Shown here in pieces: positions 13,476 to 36,802 of a stretch of DNA of 64,000 bases. A model generated the notes under the pieces. It was given only the letters and a program-made list of their open reading frames with translations, was not told where the DNA came from and did not search any database. The position numbers were made by a program, and so were the translations under genes. The stretch is from Blastopirellula sediminis. GTDB lineage: Bacteria > Planctomycetota > Planctomycetia > Pirellulales > Pirellulaceae. Each line of letters begins with the position of its first letter. Positions within the stretch are counted from its first letter, which is position 1. The stretch is from positions 1,762,720 through 1,826,719 of the forward strand of contig NZ_JAJKFT010000010.1 of assembly GCF_020966755.1 (NCBI RefSeq). Reading direction: 5' to 3'.

Positions 13476-13834
13476 GGGGGCGAATTGGAATCGACCGGAT
13501 AGCCTGAAGTGTAAGTGGCGTGTCGAGGTTAGTCAGTGGGCCTCGTTAAAAGCTGACTACAACAATAATTGCCGAGAATAATCTCGCTCTCGCTGCCTAG
13601 TATATAGGTAGTGCCGACTGAGGGTTTTTGTCGGAGAGACCCAAAAGTCGGTTGCCAATTCCGACTCGTCTTCAGTCACGCAAAGCACGCTGAAGACTAA
13701 ATAAAGTTCTTTGATAGTGAGGGGCGTATCCCGTCGATTGGAGCCTCCCCTCGCGAAACTCAAATAGTCGACTACACACGTAGAAGCTTGCATGGAAATG
13801 TCGCGGGACGCGGGTTCAAATCCCGCCGCCTCCA
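13476..13834 (+). ncRNA. ssrA: tmRNA (transfer-messenger RNA)
   Basis: One-piece tmRNA of about 359 nt. The 5' end GGGGGCG pairs with CGCCTCC (13827-13833) as acceptor stem, with A13834 as discriminator; the T-arm is GCGGGTTCAAATCCCGC. The tag reading frame starts at GCC 13571 and stops at TAG 13598-13600, coding AENNLALAA, with the normal ALAA degron end. CCA is not encoded (CTT follows), so it must be added after transcription. Several hairpins between tag and 3' end fit the pseudoknot region. The 3' end is the integration site of the islands downstream. It rescues stalled ribosomes together with SmpB. Confidence 0.93.
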
Positions 13835-13837
13835 CTT
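13822..13837 (+). repeat. attL core (tmRNA 3' end)
   Basis: CCCGCCGCCTCCACTT, the last bases of ssrA plus three. Direct repeats at 36787-36802 and 45846-45861 bound two islands. With the middle copy the identity extends one base further left (17 bp). Confidence 0.85.
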
Positions 13838-13990: not shown

Positions 13991-14011
13991 GAGCCCGGAA
14001 CGAGTGTGCAA

Positions 14012-19104: not shown

Positions 19105-21021
19105 TCACTCGTCTCCCTTCTTTACGTACACTCCACCCTCAAGCGACGGTGGTGGAAGGCTTTTGCCTTTCTCGATCGAAACTGTTTTACCAAGCTCACC
19201 ATCCGGACCGATCTCTTGGTACAGGCCGGAAACGGGAGCCAGGTTTCCAGCGCTAAGCCGTTCCGACGTCGCGGCGATCTTTTCGGAAAGTGTCAGTTGA
19301 TCAGTTAGCGTTTCATGAAACACTCGGCCCTGTCGGGACATACGGTCGAGTTCTGTCATTCGCACTTCATCAGCTTCGGAATCGGTTTTCACAGCTTGTT
19401 TGTTGTTCTTCGGCAGGCGATAGGCGTTGCCGAAGGCGACATCAATGCTGCCGCCAGCACCAGCCCGCCGGCTAATGGATTTGACCAGGCCGCGAGCGGT
19501 CAACACGTCGAGGTGGCGTCGGACGGTTGCGACCGAGAGCTTGTCGAGCGGCTCGACCAACGAATCCGTCAACGTCGACAAGGTGAACGTGCCGGCGCTG
19601 GCATCGAGTTCAAGCGATTGAATTTGGCGGAGTAGTTCATGCTGTTCCCGATTGAGGTCTTCGTGCCGATCGTCCTGATCTTTCGCTTTGACTTCGATTT
19701 TGGTGTCAGCGACGGTCAGTTTGACGCCTGCTTCATGTAGCCATTTGTCACGTTTCGCCGCCTCCTGTTCGAGCAATTCACGATTGGCTTCCCGCCATTC
19801 AGCTGTCAGTTCGCCGCTGAAAGCGTGCGCGAGAAGTGATCTGTTCAATTTCAAGTCAATACATTGTGATTCGTACATCAGCGACCGCTTCAAGTCATCT
19901 ATTTCTCTAACGACCTCAATGAATCGCAATTGTCGATCTCGTGGAACCGCCGGAATTGCTAAACCCTTAAGACCTTGAGTGTTGATGTTGAATTGCCCAG
20001 CTGACGTCTTCGACTGTCGCATGACGTCTCGTCGGCCAATCGGTGTGCGGAGATACGAAGCAACAAACTCGGGTTCAAACGAATCCTCCTTCAAACGAAG
20101 TCTTATGAGATACGAAGCGAAAATGACTTCTTGCTCGTTCAATCCAGCTTCATTAGCGAGCTGACGATTGAAGACAGCACTTCGACCCACATACTCAGGA
20201 TTTCCATTGGTCCGTACGAAAAGCATGTCGTGATCGCTAAGAAAGTATTTCTTAGCCTCTGCTTCTGAGAGTGGAACTGTTACTAGTTCATCGTAGGAAA
20301 CAGTGTCGCCAACTACGTTTGGAATCCTGAGTGTTGTGTACCCCGTTTCGGCGGATGCAGTAGACGTTCCATACTGAATTTCGCTCGTAATGGCTCCAAG
20401 TCGCACGTACTGCACTTCCGAAAGCTCTTCGCCGAACATGTCATGGAAGATGGCGGGGATAAGATCGGCAGTGAGGCCGTAGGCCTGCTGGCGGAGTTGT
20501 CGGATGTCACGCGCCTCGTCCAGAGTCTCCACAATTCGCCGCTGCTCACTCAGCGTAGGAAGTGGAATGGGGAACGTCGACAGCGCGCGTGCGTCAACCG
20601 CAGCTTGATTTACCCATTGTTTGCCCCGTCGCCCCGAGAATCCCATGCCCCAGTAGAAGTGAAGCACTCGCGCGAGGAACTTGGGATCGACCACCTCAGG
20701 ATTGACGCGCAACCGCGTCATGTGATTGGACAAGACCCAATCGCCATCAAGATCAAAGAATGCGGTTTTGCCAACAAGCTCTGGGCTGTTGGTGTTATTG
20801 AAAATCACGTCACCAGGCGTCACGGAATACTTCGTAAGCTCAGCCTCCGACGCGTCGACGCGTTTCACTGTCTCAAGTGAAAGCTCGCCATTCCTATCCA
20901 CGTTGTTTGTTCTTAGCTGAGCAATGCCAACGTCACCATCTCCAGGATCACGTGCGAAACCAGGTTGGACATCAGTAAGCAACTGCGACAGACGGGCTAC
21001 CGGCCATTCGGTGCGAAACAT
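19105..21021 (-). CDS. hsdS: Type I restriction-modification specificity subunit HsdS, extended
   Basis: 638 residues, against about 400-460 for usual HsdS. Two target-recognition half-domains: residues 1-175 (PVARLSQLLTDVQPG..., ending LPTLSEQRRIVETLDEAR) and 205-390 (VRLGAITSEIQYGTS..., ending IPAVPRDRQLRFIEVVREIDDLKRS), each followed by the conserved spacer helix. The extra C-terminal 230 residues contain a charged helix and at about 455-535 a winged-helix-like segment (LLRQIQSLE..LSVATVRRHLDVLTARGLVKSISRRAGAGG), then a tail. DNA sequence recognised is unknown. ATG overlaps the hsdM TGA by one base. Confidence 0.92.
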   Translation of the reverse strand: MFRTEWPVARLSQLLTDVQPGFARDPGDGDVGIAQLRTNNVDRNGELSLETVKRVDASEAELTKYSVTPGDVIFNNTNSPELVGKTAFFDLDGDWVLSNHMTRLRVNPEVVDPKFLARVLHFYWGMGFSGRRGKQWVNQAAVDARALSTFPIPLPTLSEQRRIVETLDEARDIRQLRQQAYGLTADLIPAIFHDMFGEELSEVQYVRLGAITSEIQYGTSTASAETGYTTLRIPNVVGDTVSYDELVTVPLSEAEAKKYFLSDHDMLFVRTNGNPEYVGRSAVFNRQLANEAGLNEQEVIFASYLIRLRLKEDSFEPEFVASYLRTPIGRRDVMRQSKTSAGQFNINTQGLKGLAIPAVPRDRQLRFIEVVREIDDLKRSLMYESQCIDLKLNRSLLAHAFSGELTAEWREANRELLEQEAAKRDKWLHEAGVKLTVADTKIEVKAKDQDDRHEDLNREQHELLRQIQSLELDASAGTFTLSTLTDSLVEPLDKLSVATVRRHLDVLTARGLVKSISRRAGAGGSIDVAFGNAYRLPKNNKQAVKTDSEADEVRMTELDRMSRQGRVFHETLTDQLTLSEKIAATSERLSAGNLAPVSGLYQEIGPDGELGKTVSIEKGKSLPPPSLEGGVYVKKGDE

Positions 21022-23504
21022 CAGGCCCCACCTCCGACCATCTTGAGTAAATCGCTGAGCTTATCACCTATTCTCTTGTGGACGTTGTCAAGCTCTTCAA
21101 TGAGTTCTGAGGGGGGGCGGAAATCTTCTGGGTCGTAAACGAATGGTTTATGTCTACCCGCCGACAGGTTGAGATCGGCCGCCTCGATACAATCGGGATC
21201 GAGCAGTTCCACGAAGTCATCTTTGACTGTTCCGTCGTCGTTGAACGCCTCTAGCTTCTCAATAAGAAACTTCAGGTACTCTGGATCGACTAGACCGTCG
21301 TCATCGTGCGTTGGCTTCTTGATCTCCTTTTCCGTTTCAGGATCGGCTCCCCATGTGTCGAGCTTTGCCCATGCACGGACGGGCGTGATCCAAGCGAGCA
21401 CATCCGATGGGGCTTCTTCGTGTTCGGTCGACTTCTGCGGCTTCTCATCGTGTGTTGTGACATCGACACTGCGGAGCCAGATGTCATAACCATCCAACCT
21501 CGCAAAACACTTCAAGATTCCGTTGAGTGATTCCTCGGCAACGTCATAATCCTGCGGCTCTTCTGGCTTCGACTTGTCTTTGGATGCTGTCTCCAAGTTT
21601 GCCCGAGCGTCCTCGGATGCTGCATCCAGAGTCTGCTTCAATGCCTTGTAACCGAACTCGTCGTATTCGCGGTCCAGAACCTTCTTCTCGCGTATCTGCT
21701 TATTCAGATCGCTGGTCAACTTTCGTAATCGCTTGTTCAGCTCTTTTGCGGCATTCTCCCGCTTTTTGGCTTTTGCTTTGGCCTTCGCACCAGTCGCCCA
21801 CGCATGTTTCACAAACTGAGACGTCAGGGCGTCGATTAGCGCTCGACCCTCAGTACAGACGACTTCGGTCATTTCCTCGGGATCGCGCGGCAGATCAGCA
21901 AAGATTTCATGCAACCCGAGCGCGTGACCCTTTTGCGATTCTTCTTCGGGGAAGATAAGCAGGAAATCATCGTCGATGACACGCCAGCGTTCTCTCCAGT
22001 ATTCAGGCTGGTGGTAGGTTGTGGCCTCGGCCGCTTCACGCAGGCCAGCGATGTCTGAGCCCTGAAGCACCTCAAACCACTTTTGAAACTTTTCACTCGC
22101 GTCGTATAGGTCGTTATTCTGTCCCTGACGTTTGTTGCGTTTCTGATCGAGCGTGAACGCTTCTTCGGCGATCTCGTAAAACCAGACCTCTTTCGTCCGA
22201 GGCTCGCGGCCCGCCAGCGCCTCGTCGCCGACCTTCTGGAAGATCAGGATCGACGTTTTCACGCCTGAGTACGGATTGAAGACCCCACCGGGGAGTGAAA
22301 CGACGCCTTCCAGTGTATGCTCAAACAATAACTTGCGGCGAAGTTCCTTGTGAGCGTTTGTTGAACCAAACAGTACGCCATCTGGGACGACCACTGCACA
22401 ACGGCCACCGACTCGCAACAGGTCCAGCATCATCCAGACATAGAGCAGCTCGCTCTTGGTTGTCAGCGGCTTCTTGCCTTTGAACTCCACTCGGTTTCGA
22501 TTCGTTGAAAGATCACCCTGATCGACGGTCCCCGTGTAGGGAGGATTCGCAAGAACAAAGTCGAATGTGTCGCTCAGATCATCCGGCATCCGTTTGGAGA
22601 GGCTATCCAGCTGGTCGATCTTGGGGAAATCCAGATCGTGGAGGATCATGTTCATCCACGCGATGCGGACCATCGTGCGATCGTTGTCGTAGCCGAAGAA
22701 GCATTCGTTCGGATCGAGTTCTTCAGGTAGCGTTGCAAACAAACGATGCGGCGTGCCGTCCCATTCCAGACGCAATAGTTCCTTGTCCGTCTTGTTCTTC
22801 TTCCAGTGGATCAGTGTGTTGACGAGAAACCCGCCTGTGCCACACGCAGGATCGAGGATTCGAGTCGGCCGTCCATTGGTGATGGGCGGTGGATCAAGCA
22901 CCTCGATCATGAATCGAATGATGTGCCGTGGCGTGCGAAACTGCCCGTTTTTTCCGGCCGTTTGAATCTCGCCGAGCAGGTACTCGAAGATGTCACCCAT
23001 GATGTCGGCGTTGGCTCCGCCGATCTGGTTGAACAATTCGTGTATCGCCTGAACCGCTCGTGTGAGGGTGTCGGTCTTGTTTGGATCGAGCACGAAGTAA
23101 GCGTCATCTAATCGACCGGTAATCTTTTCCAGTGGATCATGGTTCGATGGATTATTCTCCTTCAGCCACTTCTCAAGCTGTCGCAGCCACGGGAAGACCG
23201 TATCGTTGAAAAGCTCGAACGTGGGATTCTGGCGAATGTACTCCCAGCGGCATACGTCGTAGTCGATCGTGACTGGCGTGTCGTCGTCATTCTTCAACAC
23301 GTGTCCTTGCGAGTCTTTGACTTCACGAAGTCCATAGATGGTTGGCTTACCATCTTCGACACGTTTCTGATCGAAGTGTTCGAGTTGTCTCAGGAACAGC
23401 AGATACGTGATCTGTTCGATGGCAACCAACGGGTTGGTCATCCCGGCTGCCCAGAACATGGTCCACAGACTGTGGACTTTGCTGCGGAGTTGTGGTGAAA
23501 GCAT
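21021..23504 (-). CDS. hsdM: Type I restriction-modification DNA methyltransferase subunit HsdM
   Basis: 827 residues. HsdM N-terminal helical domain 1-160; N6-adenine methylase domain with SAM motif DPACGTGGF at 218-226 and catalytic NPPY at 320-323. The C-terminal 270 residues are beyond the normal 500-550 length and contain a very charged Lys/Glu/Ala coiled-coil-like stretch (about 575-660, KAKAKAKKRENAAKELNKRL and on) and an acidic segment. Methylates adenine in the host site and forms M2S(R2) with HsdS and HsdR. Starts 8 bp after the hsdR stop; ends overlapping hsdS. Confidence 0.95.
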   Translation of the reverse strand: MLSPQLRSKVHSLWTMFWAAGMTNPLVAIEQITYLLFLRQLEHFDQKRVEDGKPTIYGLREVKDSQGHVLKNDDDTPVTIDYDVCRWEYIRQNPTFELFNDTVFPWLRQLEKWLKENNPSNHDPLEKITGRLDDAYFVLDPNKTDTLTRAVQAIHELFNQIGGANADIMGDIFEYLLGEIQTAGKNGQFRTPRHIIRFMIEVLDPPPITNGRPTRILDPACGTGGFLVNTLIHWKKNKTDKELLRLEWDGTPHRLFATLPEELDPNECFFGYDNDRTMVRIAWMNMILHDLDFPKIDQLDSLSKRMPDDLSDTFDFVLANPPYTGTVDQGDLSTNRNRVEFKGKKPLTTKSELLYVWMMLDLLRVGGRCAVVVPDGVLFGSTNAHKELRRKLLFEHTLEGVVSLPGGVFNPYSGVKTSILIFQKVGDEALAGREPRTKEVWFYEIAEEAFTLDQKRNKRQGQNNDLYDASEKFQKWFEVLQGSDIAGLREAAEATTYHQPEYWRERWRVIDDDFLLIFPEEESQKGHALGLHEIFADLPRDPEEMTEVVCTEGRALIDALTSQFVKHAWATGAKAKAKAKKRENAAKELNKRLRKLTSDLNKQIREKKVLDREYDEFGYKALKQTLDAASEDARANLETASKDKSKPEEPQDYDVAEESLNGILKCFARLDGYDIWLRSVDVTTHDEKPQKSTEHEEAPSDVLAWITPVRAWAKLDTWGADPETEKEIKKPTHDDDGLVDPEYLKFLIEKLEAFNDDGTVKDDFVELLDPDCIEAADLNLSAGRHKPFVYDPEDFRPPSELIEELDNVHKRIGDKLSDLLKMVGGGA

Positions 23505-23512
23505 GAGTGTCC

Positions 23513-26248
23513 TTACGCGGCTAAATCGGCAACGAGTGCCAGTATTTCATTGAGTTGTTGGGGGCTGAATAGCTTCCGTGGGTCGCCAATCCTATTCAGC
23601 GGCGGTTGATTGAAATCTTCAATTGAAGTGATTGCTGGACGGCTCAGCACGAATTGCCGTAGCGTCCTGATAAACATCAGTTGTGTCGCGTTGAGCCGCT
23701 GATTGGATGCAATCCATTTGTCGAATGCCTCTGAAACCTGCTTTTCCCTTGAAGGCAACGCCGCGACTCCGAGGATGTGACTCAGAAACCCCTTCAAGTC
23801 GGCATCAGGAAACTCATAGGCTTCGCGGAGACGATCCTCGGTAATAAACAGGTCTGGCCGCTCCAGCAGGCTCGCGATGGAATTCAGCTCTTCTTCGGTG
23901 AGTTCCTCACCATCGCGCAGTTTTTGTAATGCGGGACTTTGTTCTGTCAGATCGAGAATGTAGGCTTCTACCTGCTGACGGTACGTTTCGACAAAAGCGC
24001 CTTCGCCAGAAGGGCCAAAAACGATCCAGTGCCGATCTCGTATGTAATCGCGAACCGATAGCTTGATCATTTGGCCCCCGCCACGACGTCGTGACCGGAA
24101 TCGCATCAGTGGTGTAAACACCTCTTGAATGCGTCGAAGTCGTTCCCAATTCAGTCCCTCCCAGTATTTGTCGGCAGTGACTTCGTCTAGCACATCCAGT
24201 ACAGCGCGAACTTCAGGAATGTCTCTTGGGAGTAGCGACAGGTCCTCACGCACACGATTGCTGAGCCTTGCGACTTCGCCTTCGTCTGAGCTCAGCTGAG
24301 CAATGATCAATTTCTCGGTAGTCCGCTCGAATTGTAGCATGACGTAACTGAAGGCGGTCGAGAAACGCAACAGCGGAGCGATAGTCAGCGAAAGACGTTG
24401 GTGCTTCGCTTCGTCCATTGGCAGCCATCCATCGGCGGACATGATCAGCTGTTCGATCTCGTCGGTATGCGGAGCGACGTTGATGTTGTCCAGCGGTAGC
24501 GCGCGGAGTATTGCCTGAAGGGAGGCAAGCTCTTGGTTTGCCGATTCCATCTGATCTCGGCCGGCAAGTATTTCAAGAGCTTCCAGCCGGAGCCGAAAGA
24601 TGCCGGTCGGCAACGGTTCGACCGGCTCGCTATCCTCGCCCCCTTCCGTGTTGACCTGCCAATAGGCGAAGTTGTCCCAATGGTCGATGATCAGAAAATC
24701 CTTCTTCTCCTCGCCCGAGACAGGGTCGGTCCACGTTCGCGTCCCTCGGCCGATCATCTGCCAGAATTTGACTTGACTAAACACTGGCTTGGCAAAAACG
24801 AGATTACGAATTGCGGGGACGTCAATCCCGGTATCCAGCATGTCGACAGAAATCGCGACTCGCGGGAAACCACGGTTCTTGAAGTCATCAAGTGTCTTTT
24901 CAGCACGCTCCATGTGGCTATCAATGACCTTCGCCAGCCCTCGACGTTGTAAGTCGGGATAGAGCCTGTTGAAACTCTGATAGATTTCCAGCGCGTGGTT
25001 GTGGCTCACAGCAAAGATAATTGTTTTTGCGGGCAATGTCCCTGAGGCATCCTTGATCGACACGTCCATGAACTCTCTCACGATGGCGTCATTCGTGCCG
25101 GTGTTCGTGACGCGCCGCTCGAAGTCAGTGCCGTCGAAATCCAATTCAGATGGATCAATGCCCTGCTCCCTTAGTTGAGCTTCGACCTCCGGAGGCAACA
25201 ATCCTGGCTTCAAACCTTCGACTTGGAATTGAGTCTTGGCGACGTGTATAGGACGATACGGGACGAGGTATTTGTCCTTTATCGCCTCCTCGAGGCCGTA
25301 GTAGAAGGATGGTAAACCGTCCTCGCATTCAAACAGCTCAAACGTGTTATGGTCGATGAAGTCAGTCGGGGTTGCAGTAAGGCCGACGTGGATAGCGTCG
25401 AAATGATCGGGGATCGCACGGTATCGGTTGTAAATCGAGCGGTGACTTTCATCAAAGATGATCAGGTCGAAGAATCCGGGAGAGAGACGCTGGTAAGCGG
25501 TCATCATTCCGGGATAAGTCGATGCAAGAATCCGAGCAGCGGGATCGACGTTGCCTGCCTCAATCCAGTCGCGGGGCACGTTCGGAAGATGCTCTTTGAA
25601 CGCATCGAGTGCTTGCTTCACCAATTCGCGGCGGTCAGCGAGAAACAAGACTTTTTGAATCCACTGGCAGCGAGAAAGTAAGTCGACAAGGCCAATGATG
25701 GTTCGGGTCTTGCCAGTTCCAGTGGCCATGACCAGGAGGAAGCGGCGACGAGCGGCTTCGATTCGCTCGGCTACGGTTCGAATCGCTTGGATTTGATAGC
25801 CTCGGCCGGCGATCCCTTCAGAGATGTCAGAATCTTCGGTCGGCGTCCGAAACTTCCTTAGGTGGTGAAGGCGTTCCAAGTCGTCCTGCGTGAAGAAACC
25901 GCTGACCTTTCTCACGGGGTAAAGAGAGCGATCGTGAAACCAAATTTCATTTCCGTTGGCAAGAAAGATGTATGGCTCGATGCCTTCCTTCTGCAAGACC
26001 CGATCGGCATAGTCCGAAGCCTGCCGCTCTCCTTCAAGAGCGTTGCGACTGCTCCGCTTGGCTTCAACTATCGCGAGAGGTTGTTTGCGGCTGTTTGTCA
26101 GCGCGTAGTCTGCAAACTCATTGCCGCTTTCGTGGACATCCCCAGCGAGCAAGTACTCCTCGACCGTGCGCTGATTTGCGGCCATCCAGCCCGCCTTACG
26201 CAGCTGTACGTCAATCTTCCTCGCCCGTGTTGTTGCCTCATTGTCCAC
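23513..26248 (-). CDS. hsdR: Type I restriction endonuclease subunit HsdR (EcoEI-like)
   Basis: 911 residues, GTG start with AGGA about 6 bases upstream. N-terminal PD-(D/E)xK nuclease: Asp 47 (EFADYAL) and EAK with Glu 62, Lys 64 (PLAIVEAKR). SF2 helicase: Walker A ATGTGKT 175-181, DESH box 266-269, TATP 291-294, and motif VI-like QMIGRGTRTW. C-terminal region fits the EcoEI-type R C-terminal domain. Translocates on unmodified DNA and cuts at a distance. Nuclease and motor residues are intact, so an active enzyme is expected. Confidence 0.95.
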   Translation of the reverse strand: MDNEATTRARKIDVQLRKAGWMAANQRTVEEYLLAGDVHESGNEFADYALTNSRKQPLAIVEAKRSSRNALEGERQASDYADRVLQKEGIEPYIFLANGNEIWFHDRSLYPVRKVSGFFTQDDLERLHHLRKFRTPTEDSDISEGIAGRGYQIQAIRTVAERIEAARRRFLLVMATGTGKTRTIIGLVDLLSRCQWIQKVLFLADRRELVKQALDAFKEHLPNVPRDWIEAGNVDPAARILASTYPGMMTAYQRLSPGFFDLIIFDESHRSIYNRYRAIPDHFDAIHVGLTATPTDFIDHNTFELFECEDGLPSFYYGLEEAIKDKYLVPYRPIHVAKTQFQVEGLKPGLLPPEVEAQLREQGIDPSELDFDGTDFERRVTNTGTNDAIVREFMDVSIKDASGTLPAKTIIFAVSHNHALEIYQSFNRLYPDLQRRGLAKVIDSHMERAEKTLDDFKNRGFPRVAISVDMLDTGIDVPAIRNLVFAKPVFSQVKFWQMIGRGTRTWTDPVSGEEKKDFLIIDHWDNFAYWQVNTEGGEDSEPVEPLPTGIFRLRLEALEILAGRDQMESANQELASLQAILRALPLDNINVAPHTDEIEQLIMSADGWLPMDEAKHQRLSLTIAPLLRFSTAFSYVMLQFERTTEKLIIAQLSSDEGEVARLSNRVREDLSLLPRDIPEVRAVLDVLDEVTADKYWEGLNWERLRRIQEVFTPLMRFRSRRRGGGQMIKLSVRDYIRDRHWIVFGPSGEGAFVETYRQQVEAYILDLTEQSPALQKLRDGEELTEEELNSIASLLERPDLFITEDRLREAYEFPDADLKGFLSHILGVAALPSREKQVSEAFDKWIASNQRLNATQLMFIRTLRQFVLSRPAITSIEDFNQPPLNRIGDPRKLFSPQQLNEILALVADLAA

Positions 26249-26275: not shown

Positions 26276-26479
26276 TTACTTGGAGACTCGTTTCACTGGC
26301 TGACGCATTTTCTTGAGTAATTTCTCGATCTCTATTCTCTTGAACATCCGGTAATCGTTCACTGGATGACGGTATTCGGTGAGCTTGCCGTTGGCTCCCC
26401 ATGCTCGAATGGTGTTGGGGCATACCCCCAACAATTCAGCTGCTTCTCTGACGAGAACGAATTCGTCCTTCACCGTCAT
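26276..26479 (-). CDS. Small HTH DNA-binding protein (MerR/excisionase-like)
   Basis: 67 residues: VREAAELLGVCPNTIRAWGANGKLTEYRHPVNDYRMFKRIEIEKLLKK is a helix-turn-helix followed by a short wing, of the HTH_17 / excisionase kind. It heads the RM operon, 27 bp before hsdR. It may control expression of the restriction genes (a role played by C proteins elsewhere) or act as recombination directionality factor for island 1. Sequence alone does not choose between these. Confidence 0.8.
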   Translation of the reverse strand: MTVKDEFVLVREAAELLGVCPNTIRAWGANGKLTEYRHPVNDYRMFKRIEIEKLLKKMRQPVKRVSK

Positions 26480-26798
26480 ACCTTGGACCCGTTAGAGGCT
26501 CTATTGGCCGGCAATCTCACCTGCTCAAACCTTACCAGAGTGTTCAGCCCAAAACAATCGGCTCAGCCCCAAGGGTAGAGAGAGAACGTCAAGCATCTCC
26601 GGTTAGGCAAGACCTGTCGTCGCTAAATTGAAGCAAGAAACGCGTCAAGTATGTTGAGGCCCTTAGCTTATCTCGCGTGAGCCACCGATCGGCCCTTATA
26701 GCCCCGTCATCTCCGACGTTGTCCGGAGATCGCGGGGCTTTTTTGTTTCCTGGCGGGCCGGTGCTCGGCTCGCCGCAGGTTGCTTTGTGGAGGAGTTC
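26480..26798. promoter_or_regulatory. Divergent promoter region between RM operon and DUF1257 operon
   Basis: About 320 bp between the two divergent island operons; no gene. Contains the strong hairpin at 26700-26744 within the leader of the plus-strand operon. Individual -35/-10 boxes are not clear. Confidence 0.5.
26700..26744 (+). terminator. Strong intrinsic terminator / possible attenuator in operon leader
   Basis: AGCCCCG..ATCTCCG / CGGAGAT..CGGGGCT: two 7-bp stems separated by 2-nt bulges, then TTTTTT. It lies 55 bp upstream of the first ATG of the plus-strand operon, with no gene upstream to terminate on that strand. Confidence 0.7.
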
Positions 26799-27167
26799 AT
26801 GTCGCACATCGTCTTTATTCAGACTGAAGTTCGTGATCCCGTCGCCATCCGGTCGGCTTGTGATCGTCTGCGTTTGCCGGAGCCTGTGTTTGGGCGGACG
26901 AAGTTGTTTAGCAGTTCCGAGTCAGGCTGGGCCGTGAAGTTGCCGGATTGGCGCTATCCGATCGTCTGCGACGTGAACACGGCGACGATCGCCTTCGATA
27001 ATTATGGCGGGCGCTGGGGTGACCAGAAGCAGCTCGACCGCTTTCTTCAGGGATACGCCGTTGAGAAAGCCAAGATCGAAGCCCGACAGAAGGGCCATTC
27101 GGTGACCGAGCAGTCGATGGAAGACGGCTCAGTGAAACTGACCATCAACGTCGGAGGGGCGGTATGA
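26799..27167 (+). CDS. DUF1257 (Ycf35-like) protein
   Basis: 122 residues from ATG 26799, preceded by GGAGGAG. Reads as the DUF1257/Ycf35 family: MSHIVFIQTEVRD start, central WRYPIVCDVNTATIAFDNYGGRWG, and the C-terminal Lys/Glu-rich helix with a final strand (SVKLTINVGG). Ycf35 is known from algal plastids and cyanobacteria, without defined biochemical function. Stop overlaps the next start (ATGA), so it is coupled to the DUF2997 gene, a pairing recurrent in this family. Confidence 0.8.
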   Translation: MSHIVFIQTEVRDPVAIRSACDRLRLPEPVFGRTKLFSSSESGWAVKLPDWRYPIVCDVNTATIAFDNYGGRWGDQKQLDRFLQGYAVEKAKIEARQKGHSVTEQSMEDGSVKLTINVGGAV

Positions 27168-27358
27168 ACAGGACTATCGAGATCATCATCGCACCCAACG
27201 GTCAGACCAAAGTCGAAACGAAGGACTTCGTCGGCGCGAAATGTCGAGACGCGAGTCGGTTCATTGAGCTGGCTCTCGGCCAGCAAACCGACGAACTGCT
27301 CAAGGCCGAGTTTCACCAGACCGCCTCGAACCAGCAGCACGTTCGCCAAGGCGAATAG
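27164..27358 (+). CDS. DUF2997-like small protein
   Basis: 64 residues: TIEIIIAPNGQTKVETKDFVGAKCRDASRFIELALG, i.e. two strands and a helix carrying the invariant-looking 'F.G..C...s..ie..lG' pattern of DUF2997. ATG overlaps the DUF1257 stop by 4 bp. Cys in the FVGAKCRDA element is conserved-looking. Function unknown; expected to bind or act with the DUF1257 protein. Confidence 0.8.
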   Translation: MNRTIEIIIAPNGQTKVETKDFVGAKCRDASRFIELALGQQTDELLKAEFHQTASNQQHVRQGE

Positions 27359-27420
27359 CGGCATTCCTCGACGCTGCTGCGACTCTTCTTTCGCATCCAC
27401 CTCAAACGAAGGAGTCTTCC

Positions 27421-28902
27421 ATGACATTTACCGAACGACTAGCGGAGTATGTGCGCGCATGCTTCACCGGCCTTTGGATTGAATCCCACGAACATCAGGA
27501 TGCACTGGTTGCAATGGCCCAACTCTGTCGACAGGAAGATTGGCGAATGGCAACCTGGGACATTGACCAAGGCTTGAAACTCCCTAGAGCCGAGACCGAA
27601 GCCGGGGCCAGTGATCCGTTGGCGGCGATCCGGGCGATCAACTCGCTGGCGACGCCAGAGGGGACGGCGATCTTGGTGCTTCAGAACTTTCATCGGTTCA
27701 TGCAGTCGGCCGAGATTGTCCAGGCCCTCTCACAACAGGTCGTCACTGGCAAGCAGAACCGCACCATCATCGTGGTGCTCTCGCCGGTGGTTTCTTTGCC
27801 GGTCGAACTGGAAAAACTGTTCGTCGTGTTGGAGCACGAACTTCCCAATCGTGAGCAGCTGACGGAAATCGCGGAAGGTGTCGCCACCGAAGACGGCGAG
27901 TTTCCCGAGGGGCAGGAACGTGAAACGATCCTGGATGCCGCCGTCGGGCTGACTCGCTTCGAGGCCGAAAACGCTTTCAGTTTGTCGCTCATTCAAGAGG
28001 GGCGACTGAACGCTTCGACGCTCTGGGAACAAAAGGCCCAGATGCTCAAGAAAAGTGGAACGCTTCAGCTCTATCGCGGCGGCGATGACTTCAGCCGGCT
28101 CGGCGGATTGTCAGCACTCAAGGCGTTCACGAAACGGTCGCTGCTGCAACCCAACCGCAACAATCCGCTCAAGCGGCCGCGCGGCGTGATGCTGTTGTCG
28201 CCACCTGGCTGCGGAAAGTCACAGTTTTGCAAAGCCCTTGGCAGTGAAGTCGGGCGACCCGTGTTGATCCTGGATGTGGGCAGCCTGATGGGTTCGCTCG
28301 TCGGACAGAGCGAGGAGCGAACTCGGCACACCTTGCGAACCATCGACGCGATGGCTCCTTGTGTGGTGATGATCGACGAAGTGGAGAAGGCGTTCGCCGG
28401 CGTGAACGGCCAGAGTGATTCCGGCGTGGCGGCTCGCATGTTCGGTACGTTCCTTGGCTGGCTCAACGACCATCAGTCCGATGTGTTCGTAGTCTGCACA
28501 GCCAACGATGTCAGCAAGCTCCCGCCAGAGTTCAGCCGCAGCGAGAGGTTTGACGGCGTATTCTTTGTCGACTTGCCGACTCGCGAGGAGAAAGACGCGA
28601 TCTGGGACATCTATCTCAATCTGTTCGAGATCGAACCAAATCAGCGACGGCCCAAGGATGACCAGTTCACCGGCGCTGAGATCCGTGCTTGCTGCCGACT
28701 GGCGGCGCTCCTGGATGTGACGCTTGTGCAAGCGGCTCAGAACGTCGTCCCGGTGGCCGTGACCGCTGTCGAATCAGTCGAGCGATTGCGGACCTGGGCC
28801 AGTGGCCGCTGCCTCGATGCCAGCCGTCCTGGCATCTATCAGCACGACGGTGGAAGCGGAAAATCTCGGCGACGCGTCAGTCGCGATCCCTCCAACAACT
28901 GA
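27421..28902 (+). CDS. Ycf46-like AAA+ ATPase
   Basis: 493 residues, AAGGAG 8 bases before the ATG. Residues 1-210 form the N-terminal domain of Ycf46-type proteins (RACFTGLWIESHEHQDAL, WDIDQGL, then TAILVLQNFHRF and LSPVVSLPVELEKLFVVLEHELP), which mimics an inactive P-loop fold. The AAA+ module follows: Walker A PPGCGKS 261-267, Walker B VVMIDEVEKAF around 315-325 (Asp 319, Glu 320), sensor-1 VVCTAND, Arg finger-like RSERFDG. Likely a hexameric remodelling ATPase for which the DUF1257/DUF2997 pair may be substrate or cofactor. In cyanobacteria Ycf46 has been linked to inorganic carbon use; here it is on a mobile island, so the role may differ. Confidence 0.87.
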   Translation: MTFTERLAEYVRACFTGLWIESHEHQDALVAMAQLCRQEDWRMATWDIDQGLKLPRAETEAGASDPLAAIRAINSLATPEGTAILVLQNFHRFMQSAEIVQALSQQVVTGKQNRTIIVVLSPVVSLPVELEKLFVVLEHELPNREQLTEIAEGVATEDGEFPEGQERETILDAAVGLTRFEAENAFSLSLIQEGRLNASTLWEQKAQMLKKSGTLQLYRGGDDFSRLGGLSALKAFTKRSLLQPNRNNPLKRPRGVMLLSPPGCGKSQFCKALGSEVGRPVLILDVGSLMGSLVGQSEERTRHTLRTIDAMAPCVVMIDEVEKAFAGVNGQSDSGVAARMFGTFLGWLNDHQSDVFVVCTANDVSKLPPEFSRSERFDGVFFVDLPTREEKDAIWDIYLNLFEIEPNQRRPKDDQFTGAEIRACCRLAALLDVTLVQAAQNVVPVAVTAVESVERLRTWASGRCLDASRPGIYQHDGGSGKSRRRVSRDPSNN

Positions 28903-28958
28903 AGCCGCTCTTTCCCAGTGGATGTCGCGGCTTGATTTTTCCAGTGAAAGGTAAGCCT

Positions 28959-29405
28959 ATGAGCGAAGAACCCAAAACCCGATTCGCCAAATACGAAGGC
29001 GGTTGCCTGATCGCGGTACTTGTCGTGATCGGGCTGGTCTTCCTTGCGGGACTGTTGAATCCCAAGAAGAAGCTTGTCGACGTCCGGGTCACCGGACAGA
29101 TCCAAGGGCATTTCATTGATGACCCGACATTCACGCTTTTGGTGTGGCATCAGTATGAGGGCAATCTGAAGAACGGGCGACTCACCGTCCGTCTTCATGG
29201 AAAGAGTGTCCGGCCGGAAGACGCAGTCCATGTGCATAGCTTTGAGACTTGGAGTCCCAACCAGCACAACGTGGTGACCAAAAGCATTTCGCTGCCGAAC
29301 TACGATCCAGCCGAACCGTTGGTCGTGGAAGTCTATGTGAAAGCGGCAAACGCCCGTGACACCTTGATCCGGCTTGTCTGGCAAAACGGCGATTGGAAGG
29401 ACTGA
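28959..29405 (+). CDS. Single-TM hypothetical protein
   Basis: 148 residues, ATG 28959 with AAAGG upstream. One N-terminal transmembrane segment (GGCLIAVLVVIGLVFLAGLL, 15-34), then a soluble beta-rich domain of about 110 residues outside the membrane (ITGQIQG.., RLTVRLHGKSVRPEDAV, VVEVYVKAANARDTLIRLVW). No family recognised. Followed by a terminator, so it closes the first transcription unit of the operon region. Confidence 0.65.
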   Translation: MSEEPKTRFAKYEGGCLIAVLVVIGLVFLAGLLNPKKKLVDVRVTGQIQGHFIDDPTFTLLVWHQYEGNLKNGRLTVRLHGKSVRPEDAVHVHSFETWSPNQHNVVTKSISLPNYDPAEPLVVEVYVKAANARDTLIRLVWQNGDWKD

Positions 29406-30706: not shown

Positions 30707-30801
30707 CCAACAACTGATTCTCTGCCTCGCAGATCGCGGGGCGGCTGTTTTCATACGGCCGCCCTGCGTTGGGTGGTCGTTATCTCTTTCCTTTGGAGCG
30801 A

Positions 30802-31029
30802 ATGATGACCCAAACTGACATTGATCATGCCGTCGCCTATGCGACCGGCGAAGAACTCTCTGAAATCAAGCGGCGGGGGTTCTCCATCGCCGATCCAACC
30901 GAGGTGGACTTCGATCCCGAACCTGACAATCTCTCCGGCCAGGTGGTCGACTGGGACGATGACCGATTCTCCTGCCCGTATCCGACCGTGATTCGTCTCG
31001 ATGCGTTTCTGCAACGGCGGTCTGCTTGA
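30802..31029 (+). CDS. Small acidic hypothetical protein
   Basis: 75 residues from the ATG at 30802 (GGAG 6 bases upstream; a second ATG follows directly). Very acidic centre (DPTEVDFDPEPDNL, VVDWDDDRFSCPYP). Stop overlaps the next ATG (TGATG). Not recognised. Confidence 0.6.
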   Translation: MMTQTDIDHAVAYATGEELSEIKRRGFSIADPTEVDFDPEPDNLSGQVVDWDDDRFSCPYPTVIRLDAFLQRRSA

Positions 31030-31274
31030 TGCGGAACTCCCGCAAATCCAATGACACCCGGCCGGGATACCACGGCGACCCGATCTACCGGAACGCCATC
31101 CACCGGTATCTCGGCTGGCTCGGAGTGGCTTGCATCATTGCCTGCCTTCACGCTGGTCCGGTCGTGCTACTCGTCTGGCTCGCGGCAGCGTACGTGCTGA
31201 CGCGAGACGGCAGCGGGGGCGGCCGGAATCAGGCAAAACGAAACTGTCAAAGTAAGCGAAGGAGACGCTGTTGA
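31029..31274 (+). CDS. Small membrane protein
   Basis: 81 residues. Basic N-terminus, one or two hydrophobic segments (YLGWLGVACIIACLHAGPVV and VLLVWLAAAYVL), then a basic tail (NQAKRNCQSKRRRRC). ATG overlaps the preceding stop by one base and its own stop overlaps the next TTG start by 3 bases, so it is tightly coupled to both neighbours. Confidence 0.55.
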   Translation: MRNSRKSNDTRPGYHGDPIYRNAIHRYLGWLGVACIIACLHAGPVVLLVWLAAAYVLTRDGSGGGRNQAKRNCQSKRRRRC

Positions 31275-32122
31275 TCACATTTTCCAGAAGACACGTCCGG
31301 TCAGTCCGAACGATGATGAGCCAAGCCCTGGACATCACATCTCGGAAAAGCCCGGCACCCATCGGTTTTCAGGCCACCAACGATGGCATCACACTCACGG
31401 CAAGGAACGAGACCATCGCCATTCGGCACATCATCCCCGGCACAGGGGCGTCCGGGGCATTTGTAATCCCCTTAGCAGCCCTGGCCGATTGCGAAGGGCG
31501 CGGGGATGAAGTCGTTACGTTTCGGCGCGAAGACGACGTAGTCATTGCGGAGTGGCGAGACGGGGGCATCCCGCAAACTGCTCGGCACGACGTACTTGAA
31601 GTGCCTGAAATGCCCGCCGTGGTCGAATCTACCGTCGTGTGTGACCCGGCGCTCATGCGGGCGTTGGCCGACGCGGTGGACACCGCTGATCGCGAACCGA
31701 CGCGGTATGCGATCAACTGCATCCAGCTTCGTGCGAACGGTCAAATCCTCGCGACGGATGGCCGGCAAGCCTACGTCCACGATGGTTTCGACTTTCCCTG
31801 GAATGAGGACCTGCTTGTTCCCGCCTCGCGGGTGTTGACACGAAAGGAACTTGCCGTCGTACCCGAACTTGCCATCGGTGCGTCTGACGATTGGGTTCAG
31901 GTGCGAGCGGGCGAGTGGGAACTCTGGTTGAAGATCAACAAAGACGCCCGGTTTCCACGCGTTGACGAGCATGTTCCCGATCCCAATGCCGCGACAACAA
32001 CACTGCAACTCGCCGATGAGGATGCCCAGTTTCTGATCAAAGCGATGTCGCGGTTGCCGGGTGGAGCTTGGTCCTTGGCGGTGCGATCCACAGTGCCGCC
32101 GAGTTTCATTTCAACCAGCTGA
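31271..32122 (+). CDS. DNA sliding clamp (DnaN)-like protein, 3'-truncated
   Basis: 283 residues from a TTG with GGAG 7 bases upstream (ATGs at 31313/31316 are alternatives). Two clamp-type domains can be followed: domain 1 with GAFVIPLAALADCEGRGDEV.., domain 2 with LMRALADAVDTADREPTRYAINCIQL, GQILATDGRQAYVHDGF and LLVPASRVL..EL, ending in KDARFPRVDEHVP; this matches DnaN's 'R..L.gv.l....ATDghRla...iiP' order. Domain 3 is missing: after about residue 260 the reading frame runs into sequence that, one frame over, codes the start of the nuclease gene. So the gene looks broken at its 3' end. Could still be a two-domain clamp-like factor. Confidence 0.65.
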   Translation: MITFSRRHVRSVRTMMSQALDITSRKSPAPIGFQATNDGITLTARNETIAIRHIIPGTGASGAFVIPLAALADCEGRGDEVVTFRREDDVVIAEWRDGGIPQTARHDVLEVPEMPAVVESTVVCDPALMRALADAVDTADREPTRYAINCIQLRANGQILATDGRQAYVHDGFDFPWNEDLLVPASRVLTRKELAVVPELAIGASDDWVQVRAGEWELWLKINKDARFPRVDEHVPDPNAATTTLQLADEDAQFLIKAMSRLPGGAWSLAVRSTVPPSFISTS

Positions 32123-32736
32123 TGGCCGGCAACCCGATTCCCGACCACGACACCCTGCTGGCCGTGTTTTGGGACGAGTGGCGGGATCGTAACGAGGAAG
32201 CTGAGATTCGTTTCGGCAAGAGCGAAGACGTGAACTCGGTGGCCAAGCTAGCGGATCGTATCCTGACCGAGTTTCGCCAAAGCGACCTCGCGGTCCCGCA
32301 CGGGAAAATCCTCGGGGTGGAAGAACAACTCCGTGGGGAACTGATTCCGGGAGTGCCTGACCTTTTAGCGCGAATCGACTTGATCGTCGAGGCTGAAGAT
32401 CACGTGACGATCACCGATCTCAAGACTTCTCGCTCGCGCTGGAGCAACGATCAGGCGGAAGACAGCGGCGAGCAGTTGTTGCTTTACTCTGAACTTGTTC
32501 GCTGGCTGGTGCCGGGCAAGGAAGTGCGGTTGGAGTTCGCCGTCATCACGAAAGCTGAGAAACCCGTCGCGGAACGACATCCAGTGACCTACGATCCCGA
32601 AAGAATCGACCGAACCAAGCGAATCGTCGAGCGTGTGTGGCGTTCGATTCAGGCCGACCATTTCTATCCCTCGCCATCGCCGATCGCCTGTGGTGGCTGT
32701 CCCTTTCGTCAGCCTTGCCGAGAGTGGAAGGGCTAA
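32068..32736 (+). CDS. RecB/Cas4-family PD-(D/E)XK nuclease, N-terminally truncated
   Basis: 222 residues from a TTG at 32068, overlapping the clamp-like gene by 55 bp in another frame. Nuclease motifs: GGAIHSAAEFHF (His 8), VPDLLARIDLIV (Asp 98/104), TITDLKTSR (Asp 117, Lys 119), QLLLYSELV (motif IV Gln-Tyr). C-terminal CGGCPFRQPC (Cys 208, 211, 217) is the three-Cys part of the 4Fe-4S site found in AddB/Cas4-type nucleases. The N-terminal segment that normally carries the fourth Cys (a CP..Y element) is absent, and the frame is closed by a stop at 32017. So the gene has lost about 30-60 residues. Active-site residues are intact. Confidence 0.75.
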   Translation: MVLGGAIHSAAEFHFNQLMAGNPIPDHDTLLAVFWDEWRDRNEEAEIRFGKSEDVNSVAKLADRILTEFRQSDLAVPHGKILGVEEQLRGELIPGVPDLLARIDLIVEAEDHVTITDLKTSRSRWSNDQAEDSGEQLLLYSELVRWLVPGKEVRLEFAVITKAEKPVAERHPVTYDPERIDRTKRIVERVWRSIQADHFYPSPSPIACGGCPFRQPCREWKG

Positions 32737-34013: not shown

Positions 34014-35798
34014 TCACGGTGTGGCGACTCCGTTCTCCGAGGTGAATTCGCCTGATTGACTTTGCCGGCCACCCAACGTCACCTGCCATGCATCGTACTT
34101 CCTTCCGTTGCGAGTCACTGTGGTTCGTTCCACCAAGCGGCGGGTTTCCAGTTCCCGAAGACTTCGTCGGCAAGCATCGCTACGAGCCCCGACAGCTTGA
34201 TGAAGCGCCGTGAGTGTTGTCCCTTCGCCCTCAGACAGCCCTACGAGATGGGTGAGGATCGCCTGCTCACGGTTCCGCTCCTGTTGGGCGCGGGGGCCCT
34301 GCAGCGAGCCTCTGGTCTCTGTCTCGTGGATCTCCTCGCGAGTTAGCACCTGCACATTCCACTCGCGGCCACGGAAGTTTTGGTCGAGTTGGCCTTCGTG
34401 GATGTCGAGTCCGTACAGACCACTTTGCCCGGCGCGGCCACCAAAGGCCATCCACAAGCGACAATGACCGGCCGAGGAGTCAAAAGGGACACGGTGATTG
34501 ATCAGCAGCCACTGGGCCGCCCGCTCGGCCGATCCGGCGAACGACATGTCCTTAAGGGCTGGCACGGCCCCAGTTTTGACGGTCTTCGTGAAGTGATGCA
34601 CGAACACCGGCGTAGCTCCTTCAGATTTGCACAGGTCTTCCAGTTCACTGATCCGTTCACCCATCTGAAACACATTGCCGGCCTCGGTATTCGTCCCGGA
34701 TAGGGCAATCAGGTAAAAGGGGTCAAAGATCACCACTTGCGAACTGAAATCGCGAATCAGTTTTTTAACGCGTTGCTGGTCTTGTTTTGACGCTAGTTTT
34801 GGGGCCTCAAAAATCGTATGGAGATTGAGTTGATGGGCGGCTCTCCAACCCTCTGGCCGACGAGTACGTAGGCCACACGCCAACGTAGCTGGCCGACTGT
34901 CAGCGATTTCGTGGATTCGATTTCTGGTCACCCACATTCCTGACTCCGCGCTGAACAACAGGACGTGATCCACCGGTTCACATGGAAACGTGTTTAGAAA
35001 TCTTGGCTCGATGGTGCCGTTCCTGGGCGTCGCCAAACCCACCGCTAGATCAACCGCAATGCCCGACTTGAGCGCTTTCATCGGTCCCGAGAGAAACAAG
35101 GTTTCGCCTGCGACCATCACACCGCGAACAAGCCACTGTGGCGGCTCGGCCACTTGGTCAAGTTCCTCCATCGAGAACGCCCTGAGACGACAACGATCGC
35201 CGCCCCGCATCCGCAGATCATCTGCAAGTACCTTTATCGCGTGGATCTTTTCGGTGGCCCTCACAGCCCTTAGCAGGTCGCACATCATGCCGGAAGCCGA
35301 AGCTATTTCTGTGGCGACACCGTACGTTGTGAGGTACTGGCCGACAACCTCGCTGGCAGCTGCCGGGTCGTCAGTGACGATCATCCCATCGGCAAACATC
35401 GGTGATACGAACTCGCGAACTCGACTCTCCAACCCCGGCATTTCTGTGAACTGTTCGCTCTCCACCACTCTGGTGACGATGGTGGCTAGCCCATCGGGCG
35501 TCTCGGGGATTCTTCGACCTGCCCTGTGCAACTTGTTGAGGGCGTCGATTAGTTGCTGGCCTGCATGCCCAAAGCAACGGTGCCACGTATCGAAATCCTC
35601 GCCGAACAGCCGGTCTTGTAAAGCAGGGCACCGTAGGATGTGGGCGAGGGCCACGATTTCGGCTTCTTGCCGGGCAGCGGATTCCCAGGGGTTTGAGTTC
35701 GACTGTTCCGGCAACCGGGCAACAGAGCTGGCATCAGAATTGTGATGGCCGTTGTTTTGAGGCGGCGTATTGGCCGTAATAGGTTGAGTGCGTATCAT
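34014..35798 (-). CDS. RepA-like RecA-fold ATPase / replication protein
   Basis: 594 residues. N-terminal 40-200 is helical and resembles a DnaB-type N-terminal domain (EAEIVALAHILRCPALQDRLF..). ATPase domain 220-480 of the AAA_25/RepA kind: atypical Walker A GPMKALKSG 238-246, LLFSAESG, Walker B VVIFDPFYLI 355-364, FVHHFTK with a double His, then SFAGSAERAAQW. C-terminal 515-575 is a winged helix (LTALHQAVGARSDACRRSLRELETRRLVER). This organisation fits plasmid RepA-type hexameric helicases. Probably drives replication of an excised form of island 1. Confidence 0.8.
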   Translation of the reverse strand: MIRTQPITANTPPQNNGHHNSDASSVARLPEQSNSNPWESAARQEAEIVALAHILRCPALQDRLFGEDFDTWHRCFGHAGQQLIDALNKLHRAGRRIPETPDGLATIVTRVVESEQFTEMPGLESRVREFVSPMFADGMIVTDDPAAASEVVGQYLTTYGVATEIASASGMMCDLLRAVRATEKIHAIKVLADDLRMRGGDRCRLRAFSMEELDQVAEPPQWLVRGVMVAGETLFLSGPMKALKSGIAVDLAVGLATPRNGTIEPRFLNTFPCEPVDHVLLFSAESGMWVTRNRIHEIADSRPATLACGLRTRRPEGWRAAHQLNLHTIFEAPKLASKQDQQRVKKLIRDFSSQVVIFDPFYLIALSGTNTEAGNVFQMGERISELEDLCKSEGATPVFVHHFTKTVKTGAVPALKDMSFAGSAERAAQWLLINHRVPFDSSAGHCRLWMAFGGRAGQSGLYGLDIHEGQLDQNFRGREWNVQVLTREEIHETETRGSLQGPRAQQERNREQAILTHLVGLSEGEGTTLTALHQAVGARSDACRRSLRELETRRLVERTTVTRNGRKYDAWQVTLGGRQSQSGEFTSENGVATP

Positions 35799-36353: not shown

Positions 36354-36786
36354 TTTGGACTCCTGTGTTGGGGAGTCCGCGCAGCAAAAAACCGTAGGCG
36401 CGGACTCCAATCGCAAGATCGGATGTCGCACACTACGGAAGTGCGCCGGCCGCCTTACGCGTGCCGGGGACCGTGTATCTGTGTGGCAGGTAGTCGAAAC
36501 GGAAAACCTACGCTTCGTATCCTTGCAAAAAGTTACGGCCCGTCAAGTGTCCCTATCCGACTATTCGTTCGTCAATCTCGACTAGTATTCTCAACCCACT
36601 CGATGATGCGCTAGTTGGTTTACTGACTAATCGCCCCTTACTGGTTGGAGCAAATCGCCGATTGTCTTACGGTACACATAGATGTTCTGATTGTGTGAGA
36701 GCTCTCACGGCGCTATCGTCGTAACCTATTTTACAAAAGTGGCTTGCGATTGTCATAATCGCAAGGTGCAGTGTTTTTTCGGGATT
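36354..36786. other. Island 1 right-end region without a gene
   Basis: 430 bp of lower GC. Contains the hairpin CTTGCGATT / AATCGCAAG (36743-36765), whose end is 21 bp from the att core, a likely recombination-related site. No gene seen. Confidence 0.5.
36743..36765. repeat. Perfect 9-bp inverted repeat beside the middle att core
   Basis: CTTGCGATT gtcat AATCGCAAG. May bind the recombinase or an accessory factor, or form a terminator arm. Confidence 0.5.
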
Positions 36787-36802
36787 CCCGCCGCCTCCAC
36801 TT
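36787..36802 (+). repeat. Middle att core (island 1 / island 2 junction)
   Basis: CCCGCCGCCTCCACTT, identical to the ssrA 3' end at 13822-13837. Here it is not preceded by a tmRNA (GGGATT upstream), so it is a displaced 3'-end copy. Confidence 0.85.

Follow-up and report, generated by a model that had tools for sequence, protein, structure and literature searches.

The window, a 64,000-nucleotide stretch of the planctomycete Blastopirellula sediminis genome, carries a compact gene unit encoding a DUF1257-like protein, a DUF2997 protein and an AAA+ ATPase, followed by a DUF3150-related protein (g5) and two conserved small proteins (g6 and g7), all inside an integrative island (Table 1). The first three genes had been singled out, as a tight unit with strong ribosome sites, by a sequence-only reading made from the letters and a list of open reading frames with translations, with no database searches. 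Their coordinates bear this description out: the DUF1257-like and DUF2997 genes overlap through an ATGA, the AAA+ gene is closely spaced downstream, and a Shine-Dalgarno-like stretch was seen by eye before each of the three. The family labels held in part. The DUF2997 protein belongs to PF11211 (E 6.6e-14; 51.9 bits, cut-off 24.1), whereas the DUF1257-like protein of the window scored 19.2 bits against PF06868, under the cut-off of 22.2, and thus falls outside formal membership. PF06868 was matched at E<=0.1 by 16 of 22 aligned DUF1257-like members, and a relationship of the protein to the DUF1257 family is likely from these alignments. The AAA+ protein is placed firmly by Pfam, but the only family given is 'AAA'; the label 'Ycf46-like' is that of the sequence-only reading. 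The protein is 33% identical to a cyanobacterial plasmid protein, in a comparison that covered plasmid relatives only, some of which lie beside DUF1257 and DUF2997 genes.

The DUF1257, DUF2997 and AAA genes are grouped far beyond chance. A synteny set was assembled from the window plus twenty 20-kb loci retrieved from 10 genomes and chosen by match to the AAA gene. As the sequence-only reading had supposed, the grouping is conserved, with DUF1257 and DUF2997 preceding the AAA gene in 21/21 loci; g5 and g6 are each present in 19/21 and g7 in 18/21, and the whole unit recurs in order. The proposed 'three-part' machine was therefore drawn too narrowly, since it also comprises the DUF3150-like protein and the two small proteins, and a cassette for ubiquitin-like conjugation accompanies it in related loci. 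The g5 protein was found to be homologous to annotated DUF3150 proteins (hhalign probability 98.9, E 1.1e-17, 237 columns; another alignment, probability 98.2), with similarity to those of Burkholderiales and Manganitrophus plasmids extending across most of the protein; the Pfam DUF3150 model gave no match for it.

A wider census took the best 80 of 149 relatives found with g5, so that g5 is present by construction, and some of its loci share genomes with the 20 AAA-chosen ones. Neighbour counts come solely from the 44 loci with at least 5.5 kb of downstream DNA (the long loci below) and the 38 with at least 9.5 kb upstream. Extra cargo genes fill the interval between AAA and g5 in 19 loci (gaps >1.4 kb, reaching 9.4 kb). 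Such splitting of AAA from g5, together with differing gene order on other plasmids, would suit a collection of unrelated island passengers. This is highly improbable, being contradicted by the conserved grouping: the order is kept in all 21 planctomycete loci, and among eight plasmid neighbourhoods of AAA relatives from other phyla, six have an annotated DUF2997 gene within a few kilobases and four of these also DUF1257, in varying order.

The alignment profile of the AAA+ protein has Cdc48/p97 as its nearest solved structures. In an AlphaFold2 model (mean predicted local distance difference test score, pLDDT, 79.3), two AAA modules per chain were recognised by Foldseek, and 50 of 50 listed Protein Data Bank matches were tandem ATPases (Cdc48/p97, NVL, Rix7 and AFG2; E 4e-20 to 8e-18, 500-585 columns) with 14-19% identity. 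A Walker B motif (VVMIDE) and the stretch SRSERFD, which resembles the second region of homology, each occur once, in the second module only; a P-loop, PGCGKS, was located in the same module by eye, and the strict Walker A pattern occurs nowhere in the protein. The first module has no ATPase motifs, so that the two active sites of a Cdc48-type tandem AAA protein were not found. On the modelled fold, the protein is predicted to be a tandem ATPase of the Cdc48/p97 type with an inactive-looking first module. It resembles Cdc48/p97 in its tandem AAA fold and differs from it in that first module and in the low identity; nor was a separate N domain seen. The ATP-driven character claimed at the outset is supported by the sequence.

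The unit is mobile, patchy and multicopy, and not core. A survey of 393 Planctomycetota genomes detected g5 in 42 and a match to the DUF1257 profile in 48. For long relatives of the AAA protein, with E no higher than 1e-46, a hand count gave 32 of 98 genomes, that of the window among them. One genome (G064) holds five full-length AAA copies, and copies inside one genome can be 94-97% identical over 3-6 kb. At most five candidates per genome were scored for g5 and for the E2-RING protein described below, and ten for DUF1257, so copy numbers from the phylum searches are lower bounds. A core, never mobile, gene set of most planctomycetes, the outcome named beforehand as fatal to the sequence-only reading, is rejected by this patchiness and by the five copies.

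A large-serine-recombinase profile match lies upstream in 12 of the 38 census loci with sufficient upstream DNA, and the genes concerned carry Pfam Resolvase and Recombinase domains in three examples. The module also sits on islands with another integrase type (the window, L054 and L061). Since different recombinases carry the module and some elements with related serine recombinases lack it, the module looks like payload and not integration machinery. The same two facts argue against a somewhat unlikely alternative, namely that the machine serves replication, segregation, establishment or excision control of the element by remodelling protein-DNA complexes; nor was a replication gene seen at every locus. 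On its side are the multiple, near-identical copies, the fact that, overlapping antisense frames excepted, no family outside the module reaches 18 of the 21 loci, plasmid relatives with a ParB-bearing PRTRC cassette, and a sliding-clamp-like gene near 16 of the 44 long loci.

The module is adjoined in 20 of the 44 long loci by a cassette encoding, in this order, a ubiquitin-like protein (Ubl), a putative conjugating enzyme joined to a RING-like domain (E2-RING), a JAB protein and an activating enzyme (E1). The cassette lies downstream in 19 loci and upstream in one (L116); three loci have both clamp-like gene and cassette, and ten have neither. The Ubl matched the ThiS family (1.4e-4), the E1 matched ThiF (8e-25), and the JAB protein, which retains HTHP-x6-S-x2-D, matched Prok-JAB at 3.7e-5, just under the cut-off. 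The E2-RING protein has many cysteines and an invariant HPHV-x5-C, reminiscent of the HPN-to-cysteine stretch of E2 enzymes, and the best solved-structure match of its cysteine-rich domain was the MID1 RING (E 0.005). About half of its 50 listed fold matches were UEV/E2 domains, none at E <0.27, and one was the FYVE-type domain of CARP2. Across the phylum, co-location was scored for 41 strong E2-RING places (E <1e-80) against g5 and DUF1257 places at E <1e-32; these lists omit three DUF1257 rows (two second pieces beside listed rows and one in G045), which leaves the counts given here unaffected. The g5 gene lies within 6 kb of 26 of the 41 places, and DUF1257 within 12 kb of three more. On the g5 tree, the Ubl label needs 13 changes, 8 of them forced by well-supported branches, against a shuffled mean of 17.7, with 10 of 500 shuffles as low. 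The cassette has been gained or lost often, and a strict requirement of the cassette for the AAA module is ruled out by this tree and by the co-location counts. In the window, no Ubl cassette accompanies the module, and no E2-RING match was obtained in the same genome at E<=0.001; clamp-like and PD-(D/E)XK nuclease genes, both truncated, take its place. Compared with L047, these two genes are joined by a deletion, indicative of decay in this part of the island. Elsewhere, four stand-alone Ubl-E2RING-JAB-E1 cassettes were recorded with g7 (L147, L139, L144 and L142), three of them beside a serine-recombinase gene, and one genome (G410) has strong E2-RING matches at three places and none to g5.

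A parallel arrangement occurs on Burkholderiales plasmids. A Cupriavidus plasmid carries a PRTRC cassette in the order C, F, B, A, ThiF and, 5.6 kb on, ATPase, DUF3150 and VWA genes; the C, B and A proteins we take to be Ubl-, E2- and JAB-like. Twenty of the 25 listed of 43 g5-matching plasmids are among the 60 listed of 359 plasmids matched by PRTRC ThiF; by hand measurement the two genes lie within 12 kb in 18 of these 20 and on the same strand in all, and the plasmids are mutually related and so not independent. A DUF3150 gene thus has both an AAA+ gene and a Ubl cassette nearby in two distant mobile-DNA groups. The cassette-bearing planctomycete loci are like the PRTRC cassette (NCBIfam TIGR03736 and companions) in having this layout, with C, B, A and ThiF taken as Ubl, E2, JAB and E1, on mobile DNA near AAA+ and DUF3150 genes. 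It differs in that PRTRC has VWA and ParB and an ATPase that could not be significantly aligned with that of the module. Of the cassette proteins, E1 is the only one with a significant alignment between PRTRC and the planctomycete loci, and assignment to PRTRC was rejected, as the E1 model alone was matched, with 33 bits against a cut-off of 144.75.

Other plasmid neighbourhoods bear on what the module may do. DUF3150 also lies near the AAA relative on a Manganitrophus plasmid. A Pseudanabaena plasmid (L148) has DUF1257, DUF2997 and AAA genes beside GrpE and Hsp70, a hint of protein remodelling. In Paenibacillus and Paenarthrobacter plasmids (L150 and L151) a 4Fe-4S single-cluster protein adjoins AAA and DUF2997, with an annotated DUF1257 in L150 only, and a 4Fe-4S-binding protein stands beside a third plasmid relative. 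These neighbours, and a DUF2997-ycf35-fed7 cluster named for Synechocystis in one paper (PMC4284462), would fit a host function in proteostasis or redox and iron-sulphur metabolism that mobile elements have spread, perhaps the one served by the ycf35-DUF2997 pair of cyanobacterial chromosomes. Such a function is quite unlikely here, given the patchy and mobile distribution in planctomycetes and a planctomycete module in which no iron-sulphur gene was recognised. A separate observation on a Treponema plasmid (L043) is an AAA relative inside a contractile-injection-like gene cluster.

Overall, the best explanation, though a tentative one, is that a planctomycete integrative element carries the locus as payload, and that the locus encodes a Cdc48-type protein-remodelling machine for conflict between genomes. 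The tandem ATPase, with its first ring inactive-looking and its second active, would unfold or extract proteins, and the DUF1257, DUF2997, DUF3150-like and two small proteins would be its adaptors. In many relatives a plug-in cassette brings in a ThiS/MoaD-like modifier, an E1, a JAB isopeptidase and what would be an E2 carrying a RING-like zinc domain. Targets would be tagged, extracted and de-tagged at cassette-bearing loci, and recognised directly in the window, where the cassette is absent. The proposal builds on the observed gene order, mobility, copy number, modular cassette and sequence motifs and on the predicted folds; from these we infer that the proteins act together, that they unfold and tag their targets, and for what purpose. 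That purpose would most likely be to shield the cell and the element from phages or rival elements, with element maintenance ranked second and host proteostasis or redox third. The Septu-like pair and the type I restriction-modification genes of the island count in favour of conflict. Rather doubtful is the more far-reaching idea of a mobile bacterial counterpart of the eukaryotic Cdc48-ubiquitin pathway, in which a segregase with adaptors, and a tagging and de-tagging cassette repeatedly plugged in or lost, would act as weapon or shield.

Several observations weigh against the conflict machine as proposed. PADLOC gave no specific match on the module: the ATPase drew generic AAA-domain matches only (IetA and, weakly, TRIP13), the DUF3150-like protein one weak match (WGR_XIII, 8e-5), and the DUF1257 and DUF2997 proteins none. 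IetA was rejected as an identity for the ATPase, since the AAA domain alone was matched. Direct evidence of a defence role was not found in this analysis. Among the matches listed, which cover 25 of 40 families, defence-like genes make up only a few of the 58 rows of cargo between AAA and g5 (dynamin-like LeoA/LeoBC, PD-T4-6 kinase, mad6 and PglW models, a TIR domain and a ParE toxin), and the same rows include DNA ligases and a sulfatase. Phages, too, carry relatives of the ATPase, as the full-length PHROG family phrog_8638, of unknown function, matches residues 3-475 (E 1.7e-94). In favour of a prophage reading of the locus are this family and a 4.8-kb viral contig with a 32%-identical relative, the sole one from a short-pattern scan; against that reading, 80% of the ATPase is covered by none of 121 matching phage records. 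For the E2-RING protein, no E2 or RING Pfam match was obtained, and its model (pLDDT 82.6) has no significant fold match (best E 0.27); beside the HPHV-x5-C motif and the RING-like match, these results make its identity likely but not proved. Both g5 and DUF1257 are missing from the surroundings of 12 of the 41 strong E2-RING places, and only 26 of 86 g5 places in the phylum survey have an E2-RING gene within 6 kb, so that neither g5 nor E2-RING needs the other. Nine of the 12 lone places were fetched, and none has g5, AAA or DUF1257; six have g7 and four a serine-recombinase match. The cassette therefore also travels alone. The plasmids matched by PRTRC ThiF number 359 and those matched by g5 only 43, so that g5 goes undetected on the majority of PRTRC plasmids, and the PRTRC Ubl, E2 and JAB proteins show no significant alignment with the planctomycete cassette.

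What sets the module apart from systems already described? Conflict systems that combine AAA+ proteins with ubiquitin-like conjugation have been described in planctomycetes. FtsH-ternary MoxR-vWA systems with tri-ligase Ubl conjugation are present there and have a predicted conflict function (eLife 2020, PMC7159879). The likeness lies in an AAA+ chaperone with E1, E2, RING-type E3, JAB and Ubl, besides presence in planctomycetes; peculiar to those systems are MoxR, vWA and FtsH, an effector, and a Ubl that is joined to an E2 and to EAD1 (PMC7159879). The present loci combine a Cdc48-type tandem AAA protein with DUF1257, DUF2997 and DUF3150, and where the cassette occurs its Ubl stands alone and its E2-like protein carries the RING-like domain. 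None of MoxR, vWA and FtsH was found among the module proteins scanned by Pfam, and Ycf46, DUF3150, Cdc48 and DUF1257 are absent from the main text of PMC7159879. Operon type 6d of Iyer et al. (2006; PMC1779556), as far as its available text goes, likewise holds Ubl, JAB, E1 and E2 genes and a helical protein in highly mobile clusters; 'AAA' and 'planctomycet' have zero occurrences each in that portion of the text. Bil, whose components are taken from the accessible part of PMC11354881, and the cyclic-oligonucleotide-based antiphage signalling system (CBASS) with Cap2/Cap3 also show bacterial Ubl conjugation with JAB, and the Bil component set differs from that of the module. The cassette JAB matches the Cap3 model only at E 6e-4. 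The CBASS Cap2/Cap3 component set differs from the present one as well. Bacterial RING-E2 systems have reportedly been treated by Burroughs and colleagues in 2011. In the literature searched, which included few subscription papers, no paper was found on the combination of DUF1257, DUF2997, AAA+, DUF3150 and Ubl. As far as that literature goes, the earlier suggestion of an undescribed system stands for this combination of components and not for the pairing of AAA+ and ubiquitin-like conflict functions.

The module is a promising candidate for a bacterial relative of a central eukaryotic pathway, judging from sequence and models. If the proposal is true, bacteria carry a mobile Cdc48-like extraction machine optionally coupled to ubiquitin-like tagging, and thereby a small system in which to study the origin of cooperation between unfoldases and ubiquitin-like modifiers. 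DUF1257, DUF2997 and DUF3150, families without known function found on plasmids of several phyla, the first two also in cyanobacteria, would then gain a role that can be tested.

The island itself measures 23 kb and is bounded by a perfect 17-bp direct repeat at a transfer-messenger RNA (tmRNA) gene. That the unit lies on a mobile island beside a restriction system, as the sequence-only reading had it, is borne out by this repeat and by the type I restriction-modification genes. ARAGORN detected no tmRNA in the window, though Rfam finds one. An integrase-like gene begins about 170 bases from the left repeat and has homologues at two other module loci (L054 and L061); no integrase Pfam family matched it or its L061 relative. 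The MerR/excisionase-like protein has homologues at L034 and L036. No structural phage genes were recognised among the island proteins scanned with Pfam and PHROG. Three further genomes of the genus share the left flank (81-83% DNA identity), and in each the comparison reached about 1.5 kb past the tmRNA. In one (G003) the repeat and 20 bp shared with the right junction of the window are followed by DNA unlike the left end of the island. A second (G002) has, at its tmRNA site, DNA 72-75% like the integrase end of the window, and in the third (G001) the exact repeat core was not shown. To the right, within the compared distance, the window has no more than 20 bp in common with G003 and 17 bp in common with G002, and synteny is therefore not shown on that side; the best congener matches of the gene right of the island are 51% identical and yielded no clean empty-site comparison. 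The attachment (att) repeats, the integrase and the site free of the island end in a relative identify an integrative element, with the integrase type assigned by eye only. In G001, about 11 kb from the tmRNA gene and in a stretch partly of N, a further locus (L157) has a serine-recombinase match, DUF1257 and DUF2997, with no AAA gene detected.

Table 1. Features of the island and its module, with positions in the window
Feature	Positions	Strand	Basis
tmRNA gene (ssrA), integration site	13476-13837	+	Rfam RF00023, E 2.1e-69
attL, 17-bp direct repeat, 3' end of tmRNA	13821-13837	+	longest exact repeat between the flanks compared; next is 12 bp
Integrase-like gene adjoining attL	14006-15955	+	tyrosine-recombinase-like by eye only
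Island cargo, HNH-like protein and ATPase, PDC-M01/Septu-like pair	16112-19101	-	PADLOC PDC-M01B 8e-14, PtuA 5e-27
Island cargo, type I restriction-modification (S, M, R)	19105-26248	-	Pfam Methylase_S, N6_Mtase, ResIII
MerR/excisionase-like small helix-turn-helix protein, divergent	26276-26479	-	HTH_17 1.1e-7, excisionase PHROGs
Terminator-like hairpin in leader, then T6	26701-26738	+	fold analysis, recurrence
DUF1257-like protein, 122 aa	26799-27167	+	weak Pfam match, family alignment
DUF2997 protein, 64 aa	27164-27358	+	PF11211
Predicted tandem AAA+ ATPase, Cdc48 type, 493 aa	27421-28902	+	Pfam AAA, profile, model
Variable small protein g4, membrane-anchored-looking by eye	28956-29405	+	homologues at L027, L028 and some census loci
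DUF3150-related protein g5, 316 aa	29499-30449	+	profile alignments
Conserved small protein g6, 81 aa	30461-30706	+	19/21 loci
Conserved small protein g7	30769-31029	+	18/21 loci; also by stand-alone Ubl cassettes
Small protein g7b	31026-31274	+	locus comparison
Sliding-clamp-like protein, 3' part lost	31316-32122	+	phrog_947 4e-7; longer counterpart in L047
PD-(D/E)XK nuclease, 5' part lost	32068-32736	+	PF12705 4.8e-21; L047 comparison
RepA-like AAA_25 protein, island gene	34014-35798	-	PF13481 1e-17
attR, second copy of 17-bp repeat	36786-36802	+	repeat search; G003 tmRNA end shares 20 bp with junction

The leader of the module contains the hairpin noted in the sequence-only reading. A standard terminator scan of the window returned no site at this hairpin. 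The 111-nucleotide leader before DUF1257 has a folding z of -3.3, and of 53 loci 17 have a similar hairpin upstream of DUF1257, where mononucleotide shuffles give 2.85; two of the 17 lie more than 200 bases upstream. Attenuation in the leader is possible.

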